In this document: positions 5,101-60,392 of the stretch, one piece after another
Position numbering within the stretch: the first letter of the stretch is position 1
How the letters are laid out: each line of letters begins with the position of its first letter
Source of the DNA: Mya arenaria
Taxonomy: Eukaryota; Mollusca; Bivalvia; Myida; Myidae
Direction of reading: 5' to 3'
NCBI RefSeq assembly: GCF_026914265.1
Contig: NC_069132.1
Span: 35,582,932-35,646,931 of the forward strand
Length of the DNA stretch: 64,000 nucleotides
Notes under the pieces: generated by a model
Seen by the model: only the letters and a program-made list of their open reading frames with translations
Told to the model about the DNA's origin: nothing
The model's database searches: none
Position numbers and translations under genes: made by a program

Positions 5101-8100
5101 ACCTTGCAATGACGAATCGTTACTAAAAATAAATCACAAAACAGATCGAGTCACTGGAATTTACTTTCGTTTTGGTTTCAACAATTTAAAAGTCGAAGTC
5201 AGGGTTGAGGTAGGCCTATACCCCCTACCCCCCTCCGAAATCTCAACGGATTTACACGATTTGGAAAAGTGATCCCTGAGGACATCGAAAATCCGGAACT
5301 TCCGGAGCAGTCCGGAAAACTTTCACCCATGTATATAAGAATAAATACAGTAACACACTCTCCTCCATGGAATTTCGCACTCATAATATCATGGATGCTT
5401 TCCACTGTCAACCTTGAGGTAGTTTAAAAAAAACAGGGGGATATTGCATGTATGAATTGGATACATCTTTCAATACAAAACAGAGGCGAACATCAATTAA
5501 ACAAAAATATAATGTTAACATTTTACAATACCAGTACTTGAAACATAGATCAAATATTAATTATAGAAGAAGTATTAACTACATGTACAATAAGAATCTT
5601 ACCATCAGCCATTTCACAGATCCTCTGCAACTGAGCATGAATTTCCGGGACCGAGACCTGAACTTCTTTCCCATCGCTGTCGGTCTTAAAAACGTCCATG
5701 GTGAAGTACACTCCCTTTCGGTAAATGACCACATGTTTCTGATCATTGTACGATACAATTTCATCCATGAACGGCTTCGGTCGTCTGACTGTGCAGTAGG
5801 TTTTCCTAAAAGAATGATAAACATGTTGACTATTGAGAGGGTAATTGGTCATCATCATTTTAGCATGGAATCAACTAAACATACTAATAATATCTGTCAT
5901 GTGTTCCCGTTCCAGATAGAAAAATCAGACCCGACGGCACCTGCGTTGATAGGTAACGAGGCTTGCCGAGTTACCAGCTACGCAGCGTGCCCGAGGGTCG
6001 GATTTTTCTATCCGGAACGGACACATATGATAGATATTTTTTCTAGCATACCTTAAATTACATTTTTTGTGAAGAAAGTACATAAGAAAGCGCGTTTTTG
6101 TACATTTCAGCAAAAAGTGTGTGCAATGATGTTTACTGACATCATGACGCGCAGTAATTTGTATTCACTGCATACGTCAATAAGTTCCTTCGCTATCACG
6201 TCTTTTAACGGTTATTTTGTTTTGTTTTTAAGGAATGTTTTTGAAAATTTAATGTTAATGGAACTCATCTATTGAAATCTCATAACTATGGTTACATTAA
6301 GTGTTTAATAAAAGAAATTGAAAGTATTACGTCGCAGCGCCTGACTCATCTGGCATGGGGGGGATGCCAAATGGAGTTTTCCAGCACGGCTGAAATCACC
6401 GGAAATGCCTATCCGGTGTGCTAGAAAACAGTTTACAGCTTATTTCTAACAGAGCTAATACACATACATACATAATCAACATATGTTTTAAAAAAAATAG
6501 CTAAATACAGTCAAAACTCAATATGTCGAAGTCGTAGGGACCTCGGAAAATACTTCAAGATAATGAAGATTCGATATAAGTATTACTTAACCCTTACAAA
6601 ATAAAAAAATGGACGTAACCAAAACATTGAGGTAACAGAGTTCAACATAACGAGTTTCAACTGTAACATTTTATAATCATAGGGCCATCTTAAAAAAAAG
6701 ATTGTTTGCAGCTGCATCTCCCAGAATGTTTCGATTGAGTCAATAGTTTTGGAAACAAGAGAATATCATGCTTTTATGGGGTTTTTTTCTTACTCAAGCC
6801 ATCAAGAGCTGAAAGCAAAAATTGAGCTGGGTAAGTTGGGTGAATACACCACTGCAAACAACTGTTTTTTTAATTAATTTCTTCTTGCTTACTTGTATCC
6901 ATCCATGGTAATGGGGATCAGGTCCTGCATGTACTGGGGCACCAGAGACTCATCACAGATCTGCACATAGTACCTGCAATATATATCACACCGTTGATAC
7001 AGATCTGCACATAGTACCTGCAATATATATCACACTGTTGATACAGATCTGCACATAGTACCTGCAATATATATCACACTGTCGATACAGATCTGCACAT
7101 AGTACCTGCAATATATATCACACTGTAGATACAGATCTGCACATAGTATCTATAGTACCTGCAATATATATCACACTGTTGATACAGATCTGCACATAGT
7201 ACCTGCAATATATATCACACTGTAGATACAGATCTGCCCGTAGTACCTGCAATATATATCACTGTTGATACAGATCTGCACAAAGTACCTGCAATATATA
7301 TCACACTGTCGATACAGATCTGCCCGTAGTACCTGCAATATATATCACTGTTGATACAGATCTGCACAAAGTACCTGCAATATATATCACACTGTAGATA
7401 CAGATCTGCCCGTAGTACCTGCAATATATATCACTGTTGATACAGATCTGCACAAAGTACCTGCAATATATATGTATACAAAAATCTGCACCCGCAGAGA
7501 TTCAATGTGACACTTAAATCTGTTGAAAATTACCTACTAAAAAATAATTCTTTTATTACAAGTCCATGTGCATTGGTCTGAACATGGTTAGCAAGTGACT
7601 AGTAAATCACTTTTTTTTTTCTTAGAGTTATGAATATTCGTTAACTGGGTGGTTCTGTGTCATGGCATTTACGAATAGAATGTTTAAGCCATTTTTGATT
7701 GGTTATGTTTCAAATATTGCACATTGTGTTAAATACACAACTATAGTCATGACCAACATTATAATCAAAAGGCTTCTGTAATGACACCAGCTATGACACT
7801 AACAATTATGATGGTGATAAATTAAGACTTTAAACAATATAACTTTACTAGTAACATTTTAATTGAAACAATGTGCAGTCTACGCCGCTTACACAGCCCC
7901 GCCTTTGGTCATTTACTAGAGTTTGATTGAGTATTTAGATTCTTAAAACACTTCAAAAAAAACTTTCCACAAAACTGCCCCCTGATGAGGCACTGTCTCA
8001 AATGTTCAACTTGTCAGCTATGAGCTATAGGCAAGTTATATTCATTAATACTGTTTGCAAATAGATTTAGCATTTGCAAGTTTTGTATTATAAACTAGTT

Positions 8101-14100: not shown

Positions 14101-16105
14101 AACTGCCAATACTAATTCAATGATTGTTTTATGAGGCAAAAACTTATCTCTGTATACAAAGCTCTTGTTTTTGGTGATTCATGCATAGCATAAAAAGTCA
14201 GTTCCATGGTTAAAATGAATAAGTACCGGTTGCTCATATGTCATAACACATTATAAACCACAAAAACTACCATAAGCCTTATTTTTTAGTCAATACAATT
14301 TGACGGTAGATTTTCAAATTTCTTGAAAAGAAGCTCTTCTTCAGATAATTAGCAAACAACCTTGAGATTATAAAAATATTGTGTTCAGCAAAAAGGAGAA
14401 GAATGGACAGGAAAAATAATGAAAATTTGAAGCCTTGTGATTCTTTGTGAATTTCTTACGAATAGCTGCAAGTGCTTGGAATTTTCAGCCATTCATTGGG
14501 AATGTATACGAATCCCTTTACAAGAATTTTTTTACAAATGGTGTGAGTGTTGCAAACACATTGTGAATGAAGCAATTGGGCAATTAATAGCTCTGGAGAC
14601 TGTGTCTCTTCATTGCTTGTTCTGCAGCTGCCAGACAGTGCAAATGTTTGCAAAACTCGTAAGGACTAGACCTAACGAAAGCGAGCGCTATAAATACATG
14701 TACATTGCGATGATTAAGAATGGCTTCCAAATATTTACAAGTTTGTTGCAAAACATGAAGAATATGCCTTCCTGAGCATGTTGCTAATATAGCAACAATA
14801 AACAAATTTAGCGAGTGGTTAAGAATATTTACAAATTTCTTGTGACCATATTCCGATCATAAAATTATTTGGCAAGAGAATAACTCGCAATACAATTGCA
14901 AGGAATTTGGGACTGAATGAGAGCAGCATTTCATACAAGCATTTCAAGTACTTTATCAATAAATTCACTGTAATTTATATATAGCATTGAATCATATTTT
15001 ATGTTTGTGCTCCATAAAGTCACACCTCAAAACCTGATGATGTCAAACTGTGCCTGTTTTAAGTGATTTTGTACACCCTAATTTAATGGATAATGTTTCT
15101 ACGTGTAGTTTGCTTTTTTCACTTGTGTTTTATTTATTGCCTTAATACTATTTAGTACAGTTTATGAGCTGTTTTTAAGTTAACTGAAGTTTATTGATGA
15201 AGTTTATGAGCTGTTTTTAAGTTAACTGAAGTTTATTGATGAAGTTTATGAGCTGTTTTTAAGTTAACTGAAGTTTATTGATGAAGTTTATGAGCTGTTT
15301 TTAAGTTAACTGAAGTTTATTGATGAAGTTTATGAGCTGTTTTTAAGTTAACTGAAGTTTATTGATGAAGTTTATGAGCTGTTTTTAAGTTAACTGAAGT
15401 TTATTGATGAAGTTTATGAGCTGTTTTTAAGTTAACTGAAGTTTATTGATGAAGTTTATGAGCTGTTTTTAAGTTAACTGAAGTTTATTGATGAAGTTTA
15501 TGAGCTGTTTTTAAGTTAACTGAAGTTTATTGATGAAGTTTATGAGCTGTTTTTAAGTTAACTGAAGTTTATTGATGAAGTTTATGAGCTGTTTTTAAGT
15601 TAACTGAAGTTTATTGATGAAGTTTATGAGCTGTTTTTAAGTTAACTGAAGTTTATTGATGAAGTTTATGAGCTGTTTTTAAGTTAACTGAAGTTTATTG
15701 ATGAAGTTTATGAGCTGTTTTTAAGTTAACTGAAGTTTATTGATGAAGTTTATGAGCTGTTTTTAAGTTAACTGAAGTTTATTGATGAAGTTTATGAGCT
15801 GTTTTTTAAGTTAACTGAAGTTTATTGATGAAGTTTATGAGCTGTTTTTTAAGTTAACTGAAGTTTATTGATGAAGTTTATGAGCTGTTTTTAAGTTAAC
15901 TGAAGTTTATTGATGAAGTTTATGAGCTGTTTTTAAGTTAACTGAAGTTTATTGATGAAGTGTCAATTACTTTCCATTATGAAATACATATCAATCAAAA
16001 TAATACAAATAATTCAAAAAATGCATTCAAAGCATCTTTTCCCATAAAAACTGGGACAAGGTTTCTCTTGCTAATATTAGAATATTTCTATTTACCCTGT
16101 TGGTT

Positions 16106-19100: not shown

Positions 19101-22100
19101 AGTTTTAAGACAAAAATAAAAGTAACTATCAGCTTTTGTGCAGATATACCTGGAAGGAAAAACATATGTTTCATTAAAAAAGCTATTGCACTTACAAACT
19201 GAGTTATAAAATTTATGAACAAGTGCTTCCGCTGTTTAATACCATGTTGTTTAGTTCTGGCTTCCGTAACTTTAATGTTAATATTTATTTTGTTTGATGT
19301 TTATTACACATTAAAGAACACGTCCCAAATGGTAATATATAACATGTTCGCTGAAGTTCTTTGGCTACATGTTGTTAAGGATAACGTTCAATAACAAGTG
19401 TGCAGTTTCAGTGATTGAATATCATTGTTATCCATCCACACACTAGTTATTGTATGGTTAAGCTCCGCCCATTTGTTACCATTTAGGTATAGAAGTTCAT
19501 AAAAAAAACAAATAAACACTTTCAAATGTACAAAATTAATAACAATGTTTGTGCTGAGACTGAAATATAAACATTCTCTTCATATGTGAATTTTTCCTGT
19601 ACATACCTGTCTAGGGTGGCATTGAGTTCTGGTATTGGTAGTCGCGGCAACAGGGGCTCAAAATAGAAGCATGGATACCTGCCGTTTCCTCTCAACAGAC
19701 CCAGCATCAATGCCCACATCTACAAAACAAAAAAGCACACTAGTATAAGACAGTCTTAGAAGGAATAACTAAACAATAAATAGGCATGATATTGTATATA
19801 TCAGAAAACTAGAGGCTAGAAGATATATATTTATATTTAGCAGTTTATAATATTGAGAGATGTTTTCTAACCAATACTGCCAATGGGGATATTGGGATTG
19901 TGTTTTTTCTATTAGTACTCCCAATTGATTATGGATTTAAAAAATTGATTTTCGCCGAACTCAGACATATATAATAGCTTTTCGACTATATTTGATATCG
20001 ATTAATCCCTATGTATAAATAATCATATTTTAAGTTTTGATCCAAACAAAACAAATATATGACAGAGTTAAGCATTTAATTATACAAAGGAAGAAGGTTG
20101 CCCATGCCTGCCTCATGAGGACAGAAGGTTGCTATCAAGGAAGGACAAAATGCAGCACCCATCTATGATAACTCTTTAGCTAAAATTCTATAACTGGTAG
20201 CATGTTTTTGTGCTAAGAGTAGCGTAAATTCAGCAATGACAAAAACTCGGTCCATAGAATTACCGGAATCCCCTTATTACCGGAATCCACCGGAATCCAC
20301 CGGAATCTACCATAATCTGATTAAATTATACCTAAATGTTGTTTGGGGATGTTTTTAAGCTTTAATATATGTAATGTACTAAGAGGTATACCTTTATAAT
20401 CATATTTCCATATACAGAAAGTGACAAGGATTCCGGTACTTTGCAGGTCGGATTGCCGATTATAATGATTTGACCAAGCTACCGGAATCCCCTGAGAAAT
20501 AATAATTAAACTATACTTAAATGTTGTTTGGGGTGTTTTTAATCTTTAATATATGTTATGTACTAAGAGGTATACCTTTATAATCATATTTCCATATACA
20601 GAAAGTGACAAGGATTCCGGTACTTTGCAGGTCGGATTGCCGATTATAATGATTTGACCAAGCTACCGGAATCCCCTGAGAAATAATAATTAAACTATAC
20701 TTAAATGTTGTTTGGGGTGTTTTTAATCTTTAATATATGTTATGTACTAAGAGGTATACCTTTATAATCATATTTCCATATACAGAAAGTGACAAGGATT
20801 CCGGTACTTTGCAGGTCGGATTGCCGATTATAATGATTTGACCAAGCTACCGGAATCCCCTGAGAAATAATAATTAAACTATACTTAAATGTTGTTTGGG
20901 GTGTTTTTAATCTTTAACCTGAGAAATGATAATTAAACTTTACTGAAATGTTTTTGGTACCAAAATCTAATTTAAACTATACGTAAATGTTGTTTGGGGT
21001 ATTTTTAAGCTTTAATATATGTAATGTACTAAGAGGTATACCTTTATAATCATATTTCCATATACAGAAAGTGACAAGGGTTCCGGTAGTTTGCAGGTCG
21101 GATTGCCGATTATAACGATTTGACCAAGCTACCGGAATCCCCTGAGAAATAATAATTAAACTTTACTGAAATGTTGTTTGGGGTGTTTTTAATCTTTAAT
21201 ATATGTTATGTACTAAGAGGTATACCTTTATAATCATATTTCCATATACAGAAAGTGACAAGGATTCCGGTACTTTGCAGGTCGGATTGCCGATTATAAT
21301 GATTTGACCAAGCTACCGGAATCCCCTGAGAAATAATAATTAAACTATACTTAAATGTTGTTTGGGGTGTTTTTAATCTTTAACCTGAGAAATGATAATT
21401 AAACTTTACTGAAATGTTTTTGGTACCAAAATCTAATTTAAACTATACGTAAATGTTGTTTGGGGTATTTTTAAGCTTTAATATATGTAATGTACTAAGA
21501 GGTATACCTTTATAATCATATTTCCATATACAGAAAGTGACAAGGGTTCCGGTAGTTTGCAGGTCGGATTGCCGATTATAACGATTTGACCAAGCTACCG
21601 GAATCCCCTGAGAAATAATAATTAAACTTTACTGAAATGTTTTTGGTACCCAAATCTAATTAAACTATACGTAAATGTTGTTTAGGGTATTTTTAAGCTT
21701 TAATATATGTGTTGTTCTACGAGGTACACCTTTATAATCATATTTCTATATACAGAAAGTGACAAGGATTCCGGTAGTTTGCAGGTCGGATTGCCGATTA
21801 TAATGATTTGACCAAGCTACCGGAATCCCCTGTGAGACAGAATGACTAAATTTCAATACTGTTTTCTTTTTCAGATTTAACGTAGAATACAATAGGAGTA
21901 TTTCAATTACGTTTTTGAAAATGATATTTTGTTGTATATTTGTGTCGTGTTCTATCTATATACCGTATTTCTTTTTTCAATCTGAATGATGTTACTGTAG
22001 CTGGAAGGGAAGACCGCTAACACGTGACAATAGAGTACCAATAATACATAGATGGATGTCGGACAGAATCTGTTTCTTGATCCTTTATAATGTTATTCAT

Positions 22101-23870
22101 GTTGAATGGGGAAAACAAATTCACCGATATAAATGAAAATTTATTTCTCGTAAACAATAAGAACAAGTCACATTTAATTCAAAACATAACCACGCGAATG
22201 AGGAAAAATAGTTTTTTTAGATTAAAACTCTTACTTCATTCTATATTCAAGCATTAACATACTTGAAATAGTGTTGAAATTCAGTTATTTTAGTAATTCA
22301 CAGGGGATTCCGGTAGCCTGGTCAAAACATAATCAGCGGTAAACTACCGGAATCCTTGTCACTTTTAGATTAAAACTCTTACTTCATTCTATATTCAAGC
22401 ATTAACATACTTGAAATAGTGTTGAAATTCAGTTATTTTAGTAATTCACAGGGGATTCCGGTAGCCTGGTCAAAACATAATCAGCGGTAAACTACCGGAA
22501 TCCTTGTCACTTTTAGATTAAAACTCTTACTTCATTCTATATTCAAGCATTAACATACTTGAAATAGTGTTGAAATTCAGTTATTTTAGTAATTCACAGG
22601 GGATTCCGGTAGCCTGGTCAAAACATAATCAGCGGTAAACTACCGGAATCCTTGTCACTTTTAGATTAAAACTCTTACTTCATTCTGTATTCAAGCATTA
22701 ACATACTTGAAATAGTGTTGAAATTCAGTTATTTTAGTAATTCACAGGGGATTCCGGTAGCCTGGTCAAAACATAATCAGCGGTAAACTACCGGAATCCT
22801 TGTCACTTTTAGATTAAAACTCTTACTTCATTCTGTATTCAAGCATTAACATACTTGAAATAGTGTTGAAATTTAGTTATTTTAGTAATTCACAGGGGAT
22901 TCCGGTAGCCTGGTCAAAACATAATCAGCGGTAAACTACCGGAATCCTTGTCACTTTTAGATTAAAACTCTTACTTCGTTCTATATTCAAGCATTAACAT
23001 ACTTGAAATAGTGTTGAAATTCAGTTATTTTAGTAATTCACAGGGGATTCCGGTAGCCTGGTCAAAACATAATCAGAAATCCTTATCCATATTCCTTAAA
23101 TACAGACTTATACTCATTATAGTCATTGTATACTGACATGAAAACTACCGGAATCCCCGTACCCTTTCAGATAGTATGTACGTACATACGCTCATAATGA
23201 TATATAATGGGTAATATAAATAATTAAAACACCTCCAAACACTTATATAAACTAAAAAAATATTAAGTTTTAAATTTAAGTTATTTCTCAGGGGATTCCG
23301 GTAGATTCCGGTGGATTTTGGTAGTTAGGGAGATTCCGGTAATTCTATGCACCCACAAAAACTTGTACTGTTGTTGTCAGGGACTTTTGTTTCCATGAAT
23401 AACCAGCGGCCAATTTTCAGGAAATTTCATAAGACTTCGAGTCAAATAGGATCTTGGATTTCAGTGTACCATTTGAGATGGCTGACAACTATAATGGCTA
23501 GATTACTCACTTTAAATATAAGACATGAAGTACCATTAGGCATTACCTTTGTTGTCGTCGATTTTGGGTTAAACATCCAACCCTGGTAGGCAAGGAGCAT
23601 TTTAAACAAATGCATCCTCATCAGAAGAAACATCTTCGTGGTTCCATAGCCAACTATAAAACCCAGCAGTGCGATGTTCATTTGATACGGGATTCCTGTC
23701 AACTCCATCCATTTTACACCAAAATCGACCAGATTTTCTACACCTGTTGAGAAAACTGTAAACAGTAAAGCAGACAAAAATCCTACTGCGGATGCTTCGC
23801 TAAAGTTGCGTCGATAAATGTCATATGCCCTATTTCTATAGGGCATCATCGAGCCCATTACTCGAAACAT
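2115..23870 (-). CDS. Carnitine O-palmitoyltransferase 1-like gene, 5' part (10 exons)
   Basis: Members of this family move long-chain acyl groups from CoA to carnitine at the outer mitochondrial membrane. Coding exons in gene order: 23870-23547, 19719-19607, 12045-11929, 8875-8799, 8533-8443, 6973-6893, 5805-5603, 3851-3790, 3565-3467 and 2164-2115. All introns are GT-AG and all phases agree, giving 405 codons plus two bases. Recognisable family blocks are LLAYQGWMF after the second membrane segment, LPRLPIPELNATLDR (exon 2), WLAEFWLQYAYL (exon 4), KHVVIYRKG (exon 7), PIGVFTAQNRDYWAK (exon 8), SLEVI..FLDEERPK (exon 9) and TGQGTNR (exon 10). Exon 10 breaks just where family members continue with WFDK, so the catalytic half lies beyond position 1. 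The two N-terminal membrane segments favour CPT1 over CPT2 or carnitine acetyltransferase. The family call is firm; the exact paralogue is not. Confidence 0.88.
2430..3010. repeat. Degenerate dispersed repeat with tandem monomers
   Basis: Two to three diverged monomers of about 150-190 bp lie head to tail. The shared blocks are GACCAAATTTGGTGATGAT (about 2750 and 2911), GGACAAAGG/AACAAAGG, and ATATGGCTGG (2701 and 2862). I recognise this type of sequence as a very common dispersed repeat of mollusc genomes, but I cannot name the family. It lies in intron 9 of the CPT1-like gene. Confidence 0.55.
4331..4450 (+). repeat. Degenerate tRNA-derived SINE head
   Basis: GGTGGTTAGCATAAAGG resembles a tRNA A box and GAGGTTGGATTCTGG a B box, about 35 bp apart. 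This is the pol III promoter layout of a tRNA-derived SINE. No complete cloverleaf can be drawn, so it is not a tRNA gene. Confidence 0.4.
4499..5337. mobile_element. 839-bp element with 20-bp terminal inverted repeats
   Basis: TATATACATGGGTGAAAGTT at 4499-4518 is matched exactly by its reverse complement at 5318-5337. The interior is much richer in G+C than the surrounding intron, for example at 4550-4620 and 5040-5100, and no transposase ORF is visible. A non-autonomous DNA transposon is the simplest reading. A TA target duplication is possible but is hidden in the TATATA ends. Confidence 0.72.
5890..6428. mobile_element. Hairpin-headed TIR element, copy 1
   Basis: A long hairpin (5890-6037) has GATAGAAAAATC pairing with GATTTTTCTATC and an inner stem GGTAAC/GTTACC around the loop core at 5955-5972. 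It is followed by TTTTCTAGCATACC (6039-6052), whose imperfect complement GGTGTGCTAGAAAA closes the element at 6428. A second small hairpin, CACCGG/CCGGTG, lies just inside the right end. The architecture is shared with 40043-40634. The element lies in intron 6 of the CPT1-like gene. Confidence 0.7.
6893..6973 (-). CDS. CPT1-like exon 6, whose acceptor is the source of a tandem repeat
   Basis: This 81-bp exon encodes about residues 241-267 (YYVQICDESL onward to MDGYK). Its upstream intron boundary ATATATTGCAG|GTACTATG, together with the first 19 exon bases, is copied over and over in the adjoining intron at 6974-7472. The phase agrees with exon 5 (GG|G) and exon 7 (AA|G), so the exon at 6973 is the one that keeps the frame. 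Confidence 0.85.
6955..7472 (-). repeat. 44-bp tandem repeat made from the intron 5/exon 6 boundary
   Basis: Twelve copies, counting the real exon edge, of a unit of about 44 bp. In gene sense each unit carries GATATATATTGCAG followed by GTAC and most of the first 19 bases of exon 6. Copies of TACCTGCAATATATA start at 6971, 7015, 7059, 7103, 7156, 7199, 7244, 7287, 7331, 7371, 7416 and 7459. Later units have small substitutions (CCCGTAG for CACATAG) and some lack four bases. The array replicates an intact 3' splice site. Confidence 0.93.
8903..9243. mobile_element. Foldback MITE, family 1, copy B
   Basis: Left end TTTGCACTCTCAAAGATTG and right end CTGTGAGAGTGCAGCTTTAA. The interior matches copies A and C, including GACTGCTGACAAAAA and its inverted partner TTTTGTCAGCAGTC. 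It lies in intron 3 only about 30 bp beyond the exon 4 acceptor at 8876. Confidence 0.83.
10459..11895 (-). mobile_element. Internally deleted PIF/Harbinger transposon
   Basis: Ends TGGTGTAGTCACACTCTAGC and (reversed) TGGTGCAGTCACACTATAGC are flanked by TTA at 10456-10458 and 11896-11898, the 3-bp target duplication typical of Harbinger. Minus-strand reading at 11381-10957 gives fragments WIGRRRQLGLYDQL, MPPEMYDELLQRVG, LTLRHLASGSTYA, GWRVPHNTMSVVVRKAIIDE and KFLKKWNFP. These are the N-terminal helix-turn-helix part of a HARBI1-like transposase. The sequence is frameshifted between about 11181 and 11160, has a 24-bp internal duplication near 11241-11288, and stops where the first catalytic Asp region should begin. 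The flanks are full of short GCGTATG-type repeats. It is non-autonomous and sits 33 bp from exon 3. Confidence 0.9.
15161..15960. repeat. 42-bp minisatellite, 19 copies
   Basis: The unit begins TTTATGAGCTGTTTTTAAGT and is repeated 19 times head to tail with almost no divergence. Two adjacent units near 15800 and 15843 carry one extra T, which accounts exactly for the 800-bp length (19 x 42 + 2). Each unit contains the HpaI-type palindrome GTTAAC. Stops occur in the frames inspected, so it is non-coding. Confidence 0.97.
16111..16146. repeat. TA dinucleotide microsatellite
   Basis: An uninterrupted run of alternating T and A about 36 bp long, in intron 2 of the CPT1-like gene. Confidence 0.9.
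20300..21835 (+). repeat. Satellite array 1: 184-bp units with a 466-bp higher-order pattern
   Basis: GTGACAAGG followed by (A/G)TTCCGGTA occurs at 20421, 20605, 20789, 21071, 21255, 21537 and 21759, with spacings 184, 184, 282, 184, 282 and 222. The long units carry an extra block containing TTTTTGGTACC. The 184+282 pair is repeated, which is a higher-order repeat. Each unit holds an inverted pair, GGATTCCGGTA and TACCGGAATCC, about 60 bp apart. Confidence 0.93.
22221..23085 (-). repeat. Satellite array 2: 148-bp units, inverted relative to array 1
   Basis: GGGGATTCCGGTAGCCTGG begins at 22303, 22451, 22599, 22747, 22895 and 23043, an exact 148-bp period. The module reads as the reverse complement of the array 1 module (TAGCYTGGTCAAA, then ACCGGAATCCTTGTCAC), but the spacer between modules is unrelated in sequence and length. 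Copies are nearly identical, implying recent amplification or homogenisation. Confidence 0.93.
23547..23870 (-). CDS. CPT1-like exon 1: start codon and two membrane segments
   Basis: This exon encodes residues 1-108. An in-frame TAA sits four codons before the ATG, so this is the first possible start unless the AG just before it is a splice acceptor from an upstream exon. Hydrophobic segments fall at about residues 26-44 and 66-84, followed by LLAYQGWMF, which matches the CPT1 block after its second transmembrane helix. The exon ends AAG|gtaatg. The roughly 40-residue cytosolic head that precedes the first helix in vertebrate CPT1, which contributes to malonyl-CoA sensing, is shortened to about 25 unrelated residues. 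Confidence 0.82.
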
Positions 23871-24640: not shown

Positions 24641-25085
24641 GAAGTGCACTGATGGTGAACTGATAGTGAACAAGAAGTTCACTTACTGTCTAGTACAGGA
24701 CATGTACAAGGATGCCATAGGACAAGAAACTATTATATCTGATATCTCTGAAGGGATCTGTTGCGTCTTTGGCCTCGCAAGCTATAAATGGTGGCAGCGG
24801 TAGGATGACGATAATTGCCGGATCGGAGTTGCCTTGCCCATGAGTTTCCCAGGCCAAGACTCGGGTCGAGCCTTCTCGGAGGGGAAAGTAATGTAACGTT
24901 GCTCTGTAGGTAGAAGTGCGTTCATAAAACGTCCATGTACTAAGTCTTGATAATATGCAAATTGGCATAACCAGTTCTCCGCATGGAGGTTCAAAGCCTA
25001 AGTATATGAAACCAGTTGACCCCTTCAGAGTTGAATATACCTTTCTCTGAAGGGATCTGTTGCGTCTCTGGCCTCGCACGTTACA
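24640..25085 (+). mobile_element. Possible LTR-retrotransposon relic
   Basis: A 36-bp direct repeat (24745-24780 and 25044-25079) resembles the end of a long terminal repeat, and TGGTGGCAGCGG at 24789 looks like a tRNA primer-binding site. No gag or pol sequence is present. It is a fragmentary fossil of uncertain family. Confidence 0.3.
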
Positions 25086-25088
25086 CAT

Positions 25089-25391
25089 ATGCACCAGTCA
25101 ATTGTAACCACCACGACCCCCCCCCCAAGGTACCGGGGATAGCCGGGGAAATGGGCCGTGTTTTTACCTTCCCGGTGGCCCCGCAGTGCCGGGTGAATGC
25201 GGTGGTTTTGTATTAGCGCCAAATATAGCGGGGAATGCGCCTTACTTAGGGTCCCTGGGGTGCGGGGATATTTAGCGGGGATTTTACCATCAGTTCGTCC
25301 CCGCAGAGTGGGGGTTTTACCCGGGCTTGGCCGGACCGAAAGTCAAATTTCCCGGACCTGGAGGGACCGTGGTAACAATTGACTGGTGCAT
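25089..25391 (+). mobile_element. GC-rich MITE, family 2, copy 1
   Basis: The left end ATGCACCAGTCAATTGTAAC and the right end, which reads ATGCACCAGTCAATTGTTAC on the other strand, form terminal inverted repeats of about 24 bp. The interior is strikingly rich in CCGG and CCCC/GGGG runs against AT-rich surroundings. Related copies are at 49094-49276 and 60064-60392. Confidence 0.87.
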
Positions 25392-25760
25392 TAAATAATA
25401 TCTTTTCCAGTAATTTCGGTATAAAGGAGTAAAATAATTATAATTCTATTTTTTTCTCTTTTTAAATACATTATGGAAAAAAGGTAAAAATAGCAATGGG
25501 CGAATCCGAAGTGTGGCAAATTGTAAGGAGTATTAAAACTTAGATAATTTAAATGTTTTCAGATGCGATACTCGGAAAATTATTTCCATTTGGGGCCCAA
25601 ATATGAGCGAGTCCCTGTTCTGAGGCTGTACATAGCATAAAGCACAATATTTATTTCTTAAAATGCATAATATTTATACTATGATAACCTTATTATTATT
25701 GTTTTAACATGTTGTGACGACATACGACTTTAGTGTTATGGTTAAGCAGTGTCAATAACA

Positions 25761-48780: not shown

Positions 48781-49093
48781 TAATAATTAAATATATTTAA
48801 TGAACGAAAATTAAATGTTGTACATTTACATCTATTGAATACCGTGGTTTTATTTGCTTCAAAACTCAAGTTATGATAATCGGCATGAGGGGCAGCCAAT
48901 CGAAAAAGGTGTAAGTGTACCTACCGTTTTAGATTGATGACATTTACAAATAGTTATCGATCAAGGATAAATGTAAAAAGTCTCTTTCGAACATGGATTA
49001 AATTTAAGACCGTTGATTAAACAAATGGAAACGGTTACGCGGTGTCAGTTTAGCTAAAAGCGTGAACTTTTATTGAAAGTAACAAACTCACAC

Positions 49094-49276
49094 ATGTACC
49101 AGTCAATTGTAACCACGCCCCCACAGGTCCGGGAGTATTCCGGGGATAGCGGGGAAAATGGGCCGTGTTTTTACCTTCCAGGTGACCCGCAGTGCCGAGT
49201 GAATGCGGTGGTTTTGTTTACGCGCCGAAAAAAGTGTGGAATGGGCCTTACTTTGGATGTCCCCAGGGTGCGGACA
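49094..49276 (+). mobile_element. GC-rich MITE, family 2, copy 2, right end missing
   Basis: Begins ATGTACCAGTCAATTGTAAC and continues with AAATGGGCCGTGTTTTTACC and GTGAATGCGGTGGTTTTGT as in copy 1, then stops without the right inverted repeat. Confidence 0.8.
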
Positions 49277-49359
49277 TAAATAATCAATTTGTAATCCCTT
49301 TCAGGCTATTCACTTGGATTGTAAAGTGTCTCTAAAAACTGAATATAAATCAGTTGAAT

Positions 49360-59621: not shown

Positions 59622-60063
59622 TACTATTAATAATATACACTACAGTTTTGTATACATGTGATTATGTGGAAGTGTCCGGTAACCAGACAAAAATTTCAAG
59701 ATTATTAATTTTGTTGAAAACGTCTAAAACGTCTAAAATACTGCAAGAAAGCGCCAGTTAAGATTTAGATTTAAACAATGTAGACACTATAGAAACGAAC
59801 GCAGTAGCCAAAATCCCCTATATGAGTTTGGTTACTAGACCCAACGAGGGGCACACAACGTCATAAGACAACAGACACATCTTGCATAAGTATTAAACTA
59901 ACGTTATCAATACATCAATTACAATACAACAATTATCTTAATTATCTTAAACCCGGATATATCATAACATCATAAAGGCGTCAACTGAAAAATGTTTGAT
60001 ATTTGCCCATTTGTCACCTGGGACCAATTTAACAAAAGAGTGAAATCTGATTTTTCGTAAGTA

Positions 60064-60392
60064 ATGAACAAGTCAATTGTAACCACGGCTCCCAGGTCCG
60101 GAGAATAGCGGGGACATTGACCTTCGGTCCAGTCAAGCCCGGGTAAATCCCCGCGGGGAAGAACTGCTGGTAAAATCCCCGCCGAATGCCCGGGCACCCC
60201 AGGGACCCTATGTAAGGCCCATTCCCCGCTAATTTTGGCGCGAAGACAAAACCACCACATTTACCCGGCACTGCGGTGACGGCTGGTAGGTAAAACACGG
60301 TCCATTTCCCCGGCTATCGCCGGTAAACCCTCGTCGGACCTTGGGGGAGAGGGGGGGGGGGGTGTGGGGCTGGTTACAGTTGACTGATGCAT
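60064..60392 (-). mobile_element. GC-rich MITE, family 2, copy 3, inverted
   Basis: Left end ATGAACAAGTCAATTGTAAC and right end, on the other strand, ATGCATCAGTCAACTGTAAC. The interior matches copy 1 in reverse, for example ACAAAACCACCACATTTACC. A run of G near 60349-60362 may be expanded. Confidence 0.85.

Follow-up and report, generated by a model that had tools for sequence, protein, structure and literature searches.

Introduction

Foldback-type Mutator-like elements (MULEs) with subterminal tandem repeats are already known, and several of them, according to the passages cited here, resemble the locus described below in specific respects. Tm1, a Mutator/Foldback element of root-knot nematodes, encodes a MULE transposase and generates mostly 9-bp target duplications; its ends are asymmetric (CGGTTAA and CCTACCC, the latter reading GGGTAGG on the other strand), and its composite terminal inverted repeats (TIRs) contain a variable number of tandem repeats and are accompanied by deletion derivatives (PMC3169594). 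In Aedes aegypti, the MULEs Muta1 and Muta5 produce duplications of 8–9 bp and carry subterminal tandem repeats that vary in number among derivatives; Muta1 is active in yeast (PMC5225508). Rehavkus-1_TC of Tribolium combines 9-bp duplications with a 164-bp satellite unit in its inverted termini, the arrays being short, mostly of five and eight monomers (PMC10218199, PMC6446971). Plant MULEs with tandem TIRs have ends that are tandemly duplicated and are apparently mobile (PMC3310237), and an 'Ovarian Tumour Gene' is entered for the cnidarian MULE MuDR-6_HM (PMC6446971 Table 1). Galileo of Drosophila has long, internally repetitive TIRs in which tandem repeats of ~210 bp expand and contract, with several transposase-binding sites demonstrated in vitro (PMC3688188, PMC3573991), and Tetris of Drosophila virilis has TIR-internal tandem units of ~220 bp, duplications of 8–10 bp and free satellite arrays of its units (PMC4079207).

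Here we analyze an element in a 64,000-nucleotide stretch of the Mya arenaria genome (contig NC_069132.1, positions 35,582,932 to 35,646,931), referred to as the window. A first-pass annotation, made from the sequence alone, had described the element as a transposon-like structure built from two opposed satellite arrays and had recognized no family with such a layout; close precedents do exist in Tm1, Muta1/Muta5 and Rehavkus-1_TC, and also in the foldback elements Galileo and Tetris. We identify the element as a foldback-type DNA transposon belonging to the Mutator (MULE) superfamily.

Results

Anatomy of the element in the window

The transposon spans 3107 bp (20248–23354), starts with CGGTCCATAG, finishes with CTATGCACCC and is flanked on both sides by an exact 9-bp target duplication (Table 1). 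The perfect 18-bp inverted ends reported in the first-pass annotation are present at 20253–20270 and 23332–23349, but the limits that it had drawn there, 20253–23349, are correct for the inverted ends only, as the duplications place the outer limits 5 bp further out on both sides, at CGGTC... and ...CACCC, the latter reading GGGTG... on the other strand. The inverted repeat is therefore 23 bp long with 2 mismatches. The CGGT and GGGT termini and the duplications lie outside the boxes, and the idea that the ends are merely the outermost satellite boxes is rejected on these grounds.

Between the ends, TRF recovered both proposed arrays, one with 184/282-bp units and an opposed one with 148-bp units (99% matches), as well as the suspected higher-order repeat in array 1, which has a period of 466 bp (20506–21646, 2.5 copies, 98% matches). 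Every array unit carries an inverted box pair, and the terminal box is repeated as the array box. The 8-base core of the box (CCGGAATC/GATTCCGG) occurs 31 times in the 3107 bp, whereas 200 mononucleotide shuffles gave a mean of 0.035. No open frame of at least 110 aa was found anywhere in the window copy.

Table 1. Features of the transposon in the window
Feature	Position in the window	Strand	Basis
Left target site duplication, ACAAAAACT	20239..20247	none	
Terminal inverted repeat, end A, CGGTC + CATAGAATTACCGGAATC	20248..20270	+	
Three close 10-bp boxes, ACCGGAATCC, adjoining end A	20279..20311	+	TRF
Array 1, 184-bp units, some of 282 bp (98 bp extra)	20320..21833 (right border approximate)	+	
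Core separating the two arrays	21834..22214	none	
Array 2, 148-bp units, 5.8 copies, opposite orientation	22215..23076	-	
Subterminal stretch of end B, bearing further boxes	23077..23331	-	
Terminal inverted repeat, end B, GGGTG + CATAGAATTACCGGAATC on the minus strand	23332..23354	-	
Right target site duplication, ACAAAAACT	23355..23363	none	

Two other tandem arrays are present elsewhere in the window, one of 42 bp (15159–15961, 19 copies, 99% matches) and one of 44/86 bp (6955–7473, about 12/6 copies).

Copies in the host genome

A search of the host genome (18 contigs, 1.216 Gb) with the 18-mer, allowing at most 2 mismatches, returned 300+304 matches compared with 15+30 for the reversed control, a part of them falling within two 31-bp satellite arrays; the 23-mer of end A, with at most 3 mismatches, gave 45+56 matches compared with 0 for the control. 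Convergent pairs of the 18-mer are present on many contigs. Copies of this family (family 1) were picked among the matches listed (~100 of 604). One set of twenty loci comprised nine two-ended family-1 copies, one 31-bp satellite and ten loci listed with a single end; three of the ten (L044, L046 and L047) are in fact two-ended and were added to the first 30 copies, 21 of which have exact 9-bp duplications, giving n = 33, and the other seven were excluded. Including the window's own element, an exact 9-bp duplication flanks 22 of the 33 two-ended copies, an exact 10-bp duplication flanks two, and a 9-bp duplication with one mismatch flanks three; the remaining six, among them L018, which has the longest transposase frame, show no recognizable duplication. 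Loci with the same ends, for which the first-pass annotation had proposed to search, thus exist together with their target duplications, and the end pairs across the genome bear out its view of a TIR-bounded DNA transposon with subterminal boxes in opposed arrays. A chance origin of the inverted ends is ruled out by these copies and their duplications.

A dispersed repeat occurs in the window at 25040–25400, 49060–49300 and 60062–60274, and also where L011, L014 and L022 are inserted; it was used as the related empty site for L011 and L022. When the flanks of L011 are joined so as to leave the duplication once, they align straight across 49104–49300 of the window, where the 9 bp occur a single time. 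The joined flanks of L022 cross the site at 25089–25272 with a 5-bp gap in the adjoining C run and mismatches within the 9 bp. The window therefore offers a clean related empty site for L011 and a less clean one for L022.

The 30 mapped copies share one plan, consisting of end A, array 1, a variable core, array 2 and end B. A script confirmed the order of the arrays in 29 of the 30, trivially so in the four copies L010, L021, L036 and L037, where full units are missing from at least one side, and flagged L011. The number of full units per copy ranges from 0 to 10 in array 1 and from 0 to 13 in array 2, and the core may be missing, short, coding or made of other DNA. The CGGT start is found in 28 of the 30 copies and the ACCC end in 25. 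L036 has an exact duplication yet zero full array-1 units, which implies that array 1 is not strictly needed. The core of L023 contains a minus-strand open frame of 1101 aa which, by eye, resembles a LINE endonuclease plus reverse transcriptase.

Kinship of the two arrays

The spacers of the two arrays had been described as unrelated, and the arrays as amplified independently on each side; neither statement held on comparison of the units. The inner spacers, located between the boxes, align between array 1 and array 2 units with a score above that of all 1000 shuffles, and arms of 101 nt are 71% complementary between the arrays. For the outer spacers, shuffles reached the real score 2 times in 1000 with global alignment and 62 times in 1000 with local alignment. 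Judged by these alignments, the 184-bp and 148-bp units are diverged homologues, clearly between the boxes and weakly outside them. This homology makes a single ancestral subterminal unit, which later diverged, a better account than independent amplification, and both sides most likely descend from one such unit.

Unit counts and nearest-unit statistics were taken from the first 30 copies, using 500 shuffles. On side A, the nearest unit lies in the same element in 26.7 of 102 cases (shuffles: mean 4.1, maximum 11.0), and on side B in 43.2 of 174 cases (mean 7.0, maximum 15.6), so that the own-element excess is above all shuffles. As for the outermost units, those on side A are nearest to an outermost unit of another element 27.0 times out of 28 (shuffles: mean 7.3, maximum 14.5), and those on side B 19.0 times out of 27 (mean 4.0, maximum 10.9). 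Unequal exchange within an array, together with a stable edge, would leave such a pattern; because the outermost units correspond between copies, the arrays predate the spread of the copies. The unit numbers of the two sides are loosely related (r = 0.44, 30 copies). The boxes are less variable than the rest of the units (0.010 compared with 0.047 and 0.037), and when box windows are ranked among all 9-bp windows, one of the four stands out (rank 6/139), the others ranking 29/153, 31/153 and 32/139.

Coding copies and superfamily

Two copies, L014 (8.6 kb) and L018 (5.0 kb), have MULE-like transposase open frames inside family-1 ends; they correspond to the longer transposase-encoding relative that the first-pass annotation had suggested looking for. 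The frame of L014 is interrupted by one stop, and an OTU-like frame is present in this copy as well. The frames within family-1 ends score 25.9 and 23.4 bits against the Pfam MULE model, under the curated cut-off of 27.6, and the OTU-like frame of L014 scores 20 bits against the OTU model, under the cut-off of 23.3. Searched against the genome, the transposase gave 111 matches; the relatives L049, L050 and L051 exceed the PF10551 (MULE) cut-off and L052 falls just short (27.1 compared with 27.6). The L018 transposase is 55% identical to those of the L049 and L051 loci. At L050:2074–5103 (C10), an open frame of 1010 aa combines a MULE domain with an OTU match that, at 20.5 bits, stays below the cut-off. 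Ends were searched for but not found at L050 and L052; the two of the four relative loci with resolved ends both carry arrays. The 1010-aa frame of L050 is flanked by 169-bp and 290-bp tandem arrays, which may or may not belong to an element.

An alignment of four proteins shows invariant D, D and E positions; we take these residues to be catalytic, by analogy with DDE transposases. The frames scanned, most of them incomplete, gave no FLYWCH match and no THAP match, and likewise no PHD match came from the frames scanned, which include the 1010-aa frame of L050 and the partial family-1 frames. Among viral contigs, 29 pattern matches to the transposase turned up, none of them a relative, and sequence searches of the PDB for transposase relatives returned none.

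The assignment to the MULE superfamily draws on duplications of 8–11 bp, mostly 9, in both family 1 and the second family described below, and on a MULE DDE transposase, identified through relatives above the PF10551 cut-off and the 55% identity of L018 to two of them. The inverted, internally repetitive ends with a variable repeat number are those of the foldback type, the asymmetric CGGT/GGGT ends agree with those of the Phantom subclass when set against motifs A1 and A2 of Tm1, and the 9-bp duplication and the satellite in the termini are traits shared with Rehavkus. A P-type element (Galileo, P superfamily) was considered and rejected, as such elements make 7-bp duplications and those found here are of 9 bp.

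A second family in the same genome

Loci L049 and L051 define a second family, with ends CGGTGCG and GGGTGCG, exact 9-bp duplications and inverted arrays of ~182–204-bp units that bear the box GTGAAATCCA. This array box differs from that of family 1 and from the terminal box of family 2. The family-2 end pattern, with at most 3 mismatches, has 225+219 matches in the genome and none in the control. In a sample of 14, made up of 12 of the 25 convergent pairs among the matches listed plus L049 and L051, ten duplications are exact at 9 bp, two are of 8 bp, one is of 10 bp, and one copy has no exact duplication. Each family has one C-start end and one G-start end, and all 25 convergent family-2 pairs among the matches listed are of the C/G type. 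The motif GGAATCC, at end positions 18–24 and within TACMGGAATCC, is common to both families (in L049 at one of the two ends only), and a general end pattern gave 171+195 exact matches compared with 0+1 for the control. The inverted arms of family 2 extend up to 1160 bp at 97%, whereas the two sides of family 1 have diverged.

In L061, L062 and L067 the G-start end has a variant form, GGGTACAGGG, where L058 has GGGTGCGGGG; the difference points to a sub-family within family 2. About 0.9 kb downstream of the family-2 copy, at L051:6863–8001, lies an array with 27 copies of a 42-bp unit.

A free 31-bp satellite

Arrays of a 31-bp unit start at C4:63,040,051 (L038/L053) and at about C15:26,000,387 (L054/L055). 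They extend beyond C4:63,047,900 and C15:26,008,500, respectively, thus continuing past the stretches examined, and measure at least about 7.8 kb each; the middle part of the C15 array is known from pattern matches alone. The 31-bp unit includes positions 6–28 of end A with one change, and end A of L014 has the identical change. A 32-base pattern of the satellite has 220+237 matches in the genome and none in the control, and among the matches listed all are at the C4 and C15 sites. The unit shares the TIR sequence, not the 148- or 184-bp unit. Descent of the 31-bp satellite from a transposon end would be the simpler reading of these sequences.

Discussion

In our view the window probably contains a non-autonomous copy of a cut-and-paste MULE of the foldback type, in which the transposase reads the boxes of the arrays, and the arrays, derived from one ancestral unit that has since diverged, grow and shrink. 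This explanation builds on the observed ends, duplications, empty site, coding copies with the same ends, variable arrays and homology of the units, to which it adds binding of the transposase to both terminal and array boxes, which we infer. The MULE DDE transposase supplied by the coding copies would bind the ACCGGAATCC boxes, both the terminal ones and those of the arrays, join the two ends, cut at CGGT and GGGT, and insert the element with a 9-bp stagger. An inverted box pair in each array unit would suit a dimer, and the extra boxes would strengthen recognition of the end, as proposed for Galileo (PMC3688188). An ancestral subterminal unit present at both ends would have diverged into the 184-bp and 148-bp versions, unequal exchange or slippage then lengthening and shortening each array without displacing its outermost unit. 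We counted against this explanation the Pfam scores below the cut-offs, the six of 33 copies without a duplication, the flag on L011, the gap at the L022 empty site, the conservation of the box windows, of which one in four stands out, L036 with no full array-1 unit, and the array box of family 2, which is unlike its terminal box.

Several of these points also fit an alternative in which the transposon is the same MULE but its arrays are passive, having arisen as tandem duplications through slippage or unequal exchange and taking no part in transposase binding. Conservation of the box window in one of four boxes only, the movement of L036 without full array-1 units, the wide spread of unit numbers (0–10 and 0–13) and the family-2 array box that is not its terminal box are all consistent with passive arrays. 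The presence of box-bearing arrays at both ends in two families of one transposase lineage, the repetition of the terminal box as the family-1 array box, and the binding sites reported for the Galileo THAP domain in TIR tandem repeats (PMC3688188) argue against them, and overall we consider passive arrays unlikely, though well short of improbable.

The two other explanations concern the source of the arrays. An origin from bare terminal boxes that spawned two independent satellites, one per side, is favoured by the differences between the arrays in period, in spacing and in most of the outer spacer, and by the loose relation of unit numbers between the sides (r = 0.44); the homology of the spacers, clear between the boxes and weak outside, and the correspondence of the outermost units between copies, which places the arrays before the spread of the copies, make such an origin very improbable. 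Capture of genomic satellites by the transposon appears the most remote of the explanations considered. The free 31-bp arrays with the end sequence on C4 and C15 speak for it, with the direction of descent not proven, but what this unit has in common with the element is the TIR and not the 148-/184-bp unit. Moreover, the 148-bp unit has 278 matches in the genome and, among the matches listed, all but two (C3:77,927,019 and C17:16,783,099) fall either inside a family-1 end or no more than about 5 kb away from one.

A broader possibility, which we put forward tentatively and regard as doubtful, is that this MULE lineage acts as a satellite-making engine. The transposase would read a fixed terminal code (CGGT/GGGT, nine bases, TACMGGAATCC), and additional boxes close to an end would strengthen its grip there, so that arrays of box-bearing units would be selected repeatedly, with different units in the two families; an end that escaped would have given rise to the free 31-bp satellites on two contigs, and the OTU-like partner may counter ubiquitin-based control by the host. 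The origin of satellite DNA is an old question, for which family 1 offers dozens of copies with many array sizes, and the sister family with another unit, together with the free satellites of end sequence, opens the way to asking directly whether the sites bound by the transposase drive the growth of arrays. The family is thus a good place to study how satellite-like DNA arises from mobile DNA.

Comparison with the known systems brings out what sets this lineage apart. The Tm1 unit is about 14 bp with the same motif on both sides, whereas the units here are 148–184 bp with an inverted box pair, and the Tm1 transposase has a FLYWCH domain, the main text making no mention of OTU (PMC3169594). 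Muta1 and Muta5 have 12-bp and 15-bp repeats in TIRs of 145–151 bp and, as described, no long units (PMC5225508). In Rehavkus-1_TC one satellite occupies both termini, and a PHD finger is reported, for which the frames here gave no match (PMC10218199, PMC6446971). Galileo belongs to the P superfamily, with a THAP domain and 7-bp duplications (PMC3688188, PMC3573991). Tetris, for which no coding copy was known in the work cited, has one unit in both TIRs (PMC4079207). In plant MULEs with tandem TIRs, entire TIRs are duplicated, and the abstract does not mention box-pair arrays (PMC3310237); MuDR-6_HM, compared by description only, is listed with no TIR (PMC6446971 Table 1). A literature search for Mutator-like subterminal arrays in molluscs found nothing, and in the literature examined, mostly passages and abstracts without Repbase, the union of long inverted-box-pair units, diverged end arrays, an OTU-like partner, two parallel families and a free end satellite was not found. 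While foldback-type MULEs as such are familiar, the combination of long box-pair units, diverged arrays, an OTU-like partner, a parallel second family and an end-derived satellite appears to be new, and the foldback type gains a MULE lineage in which an OTU-like partner and long-unit arrays occur together.
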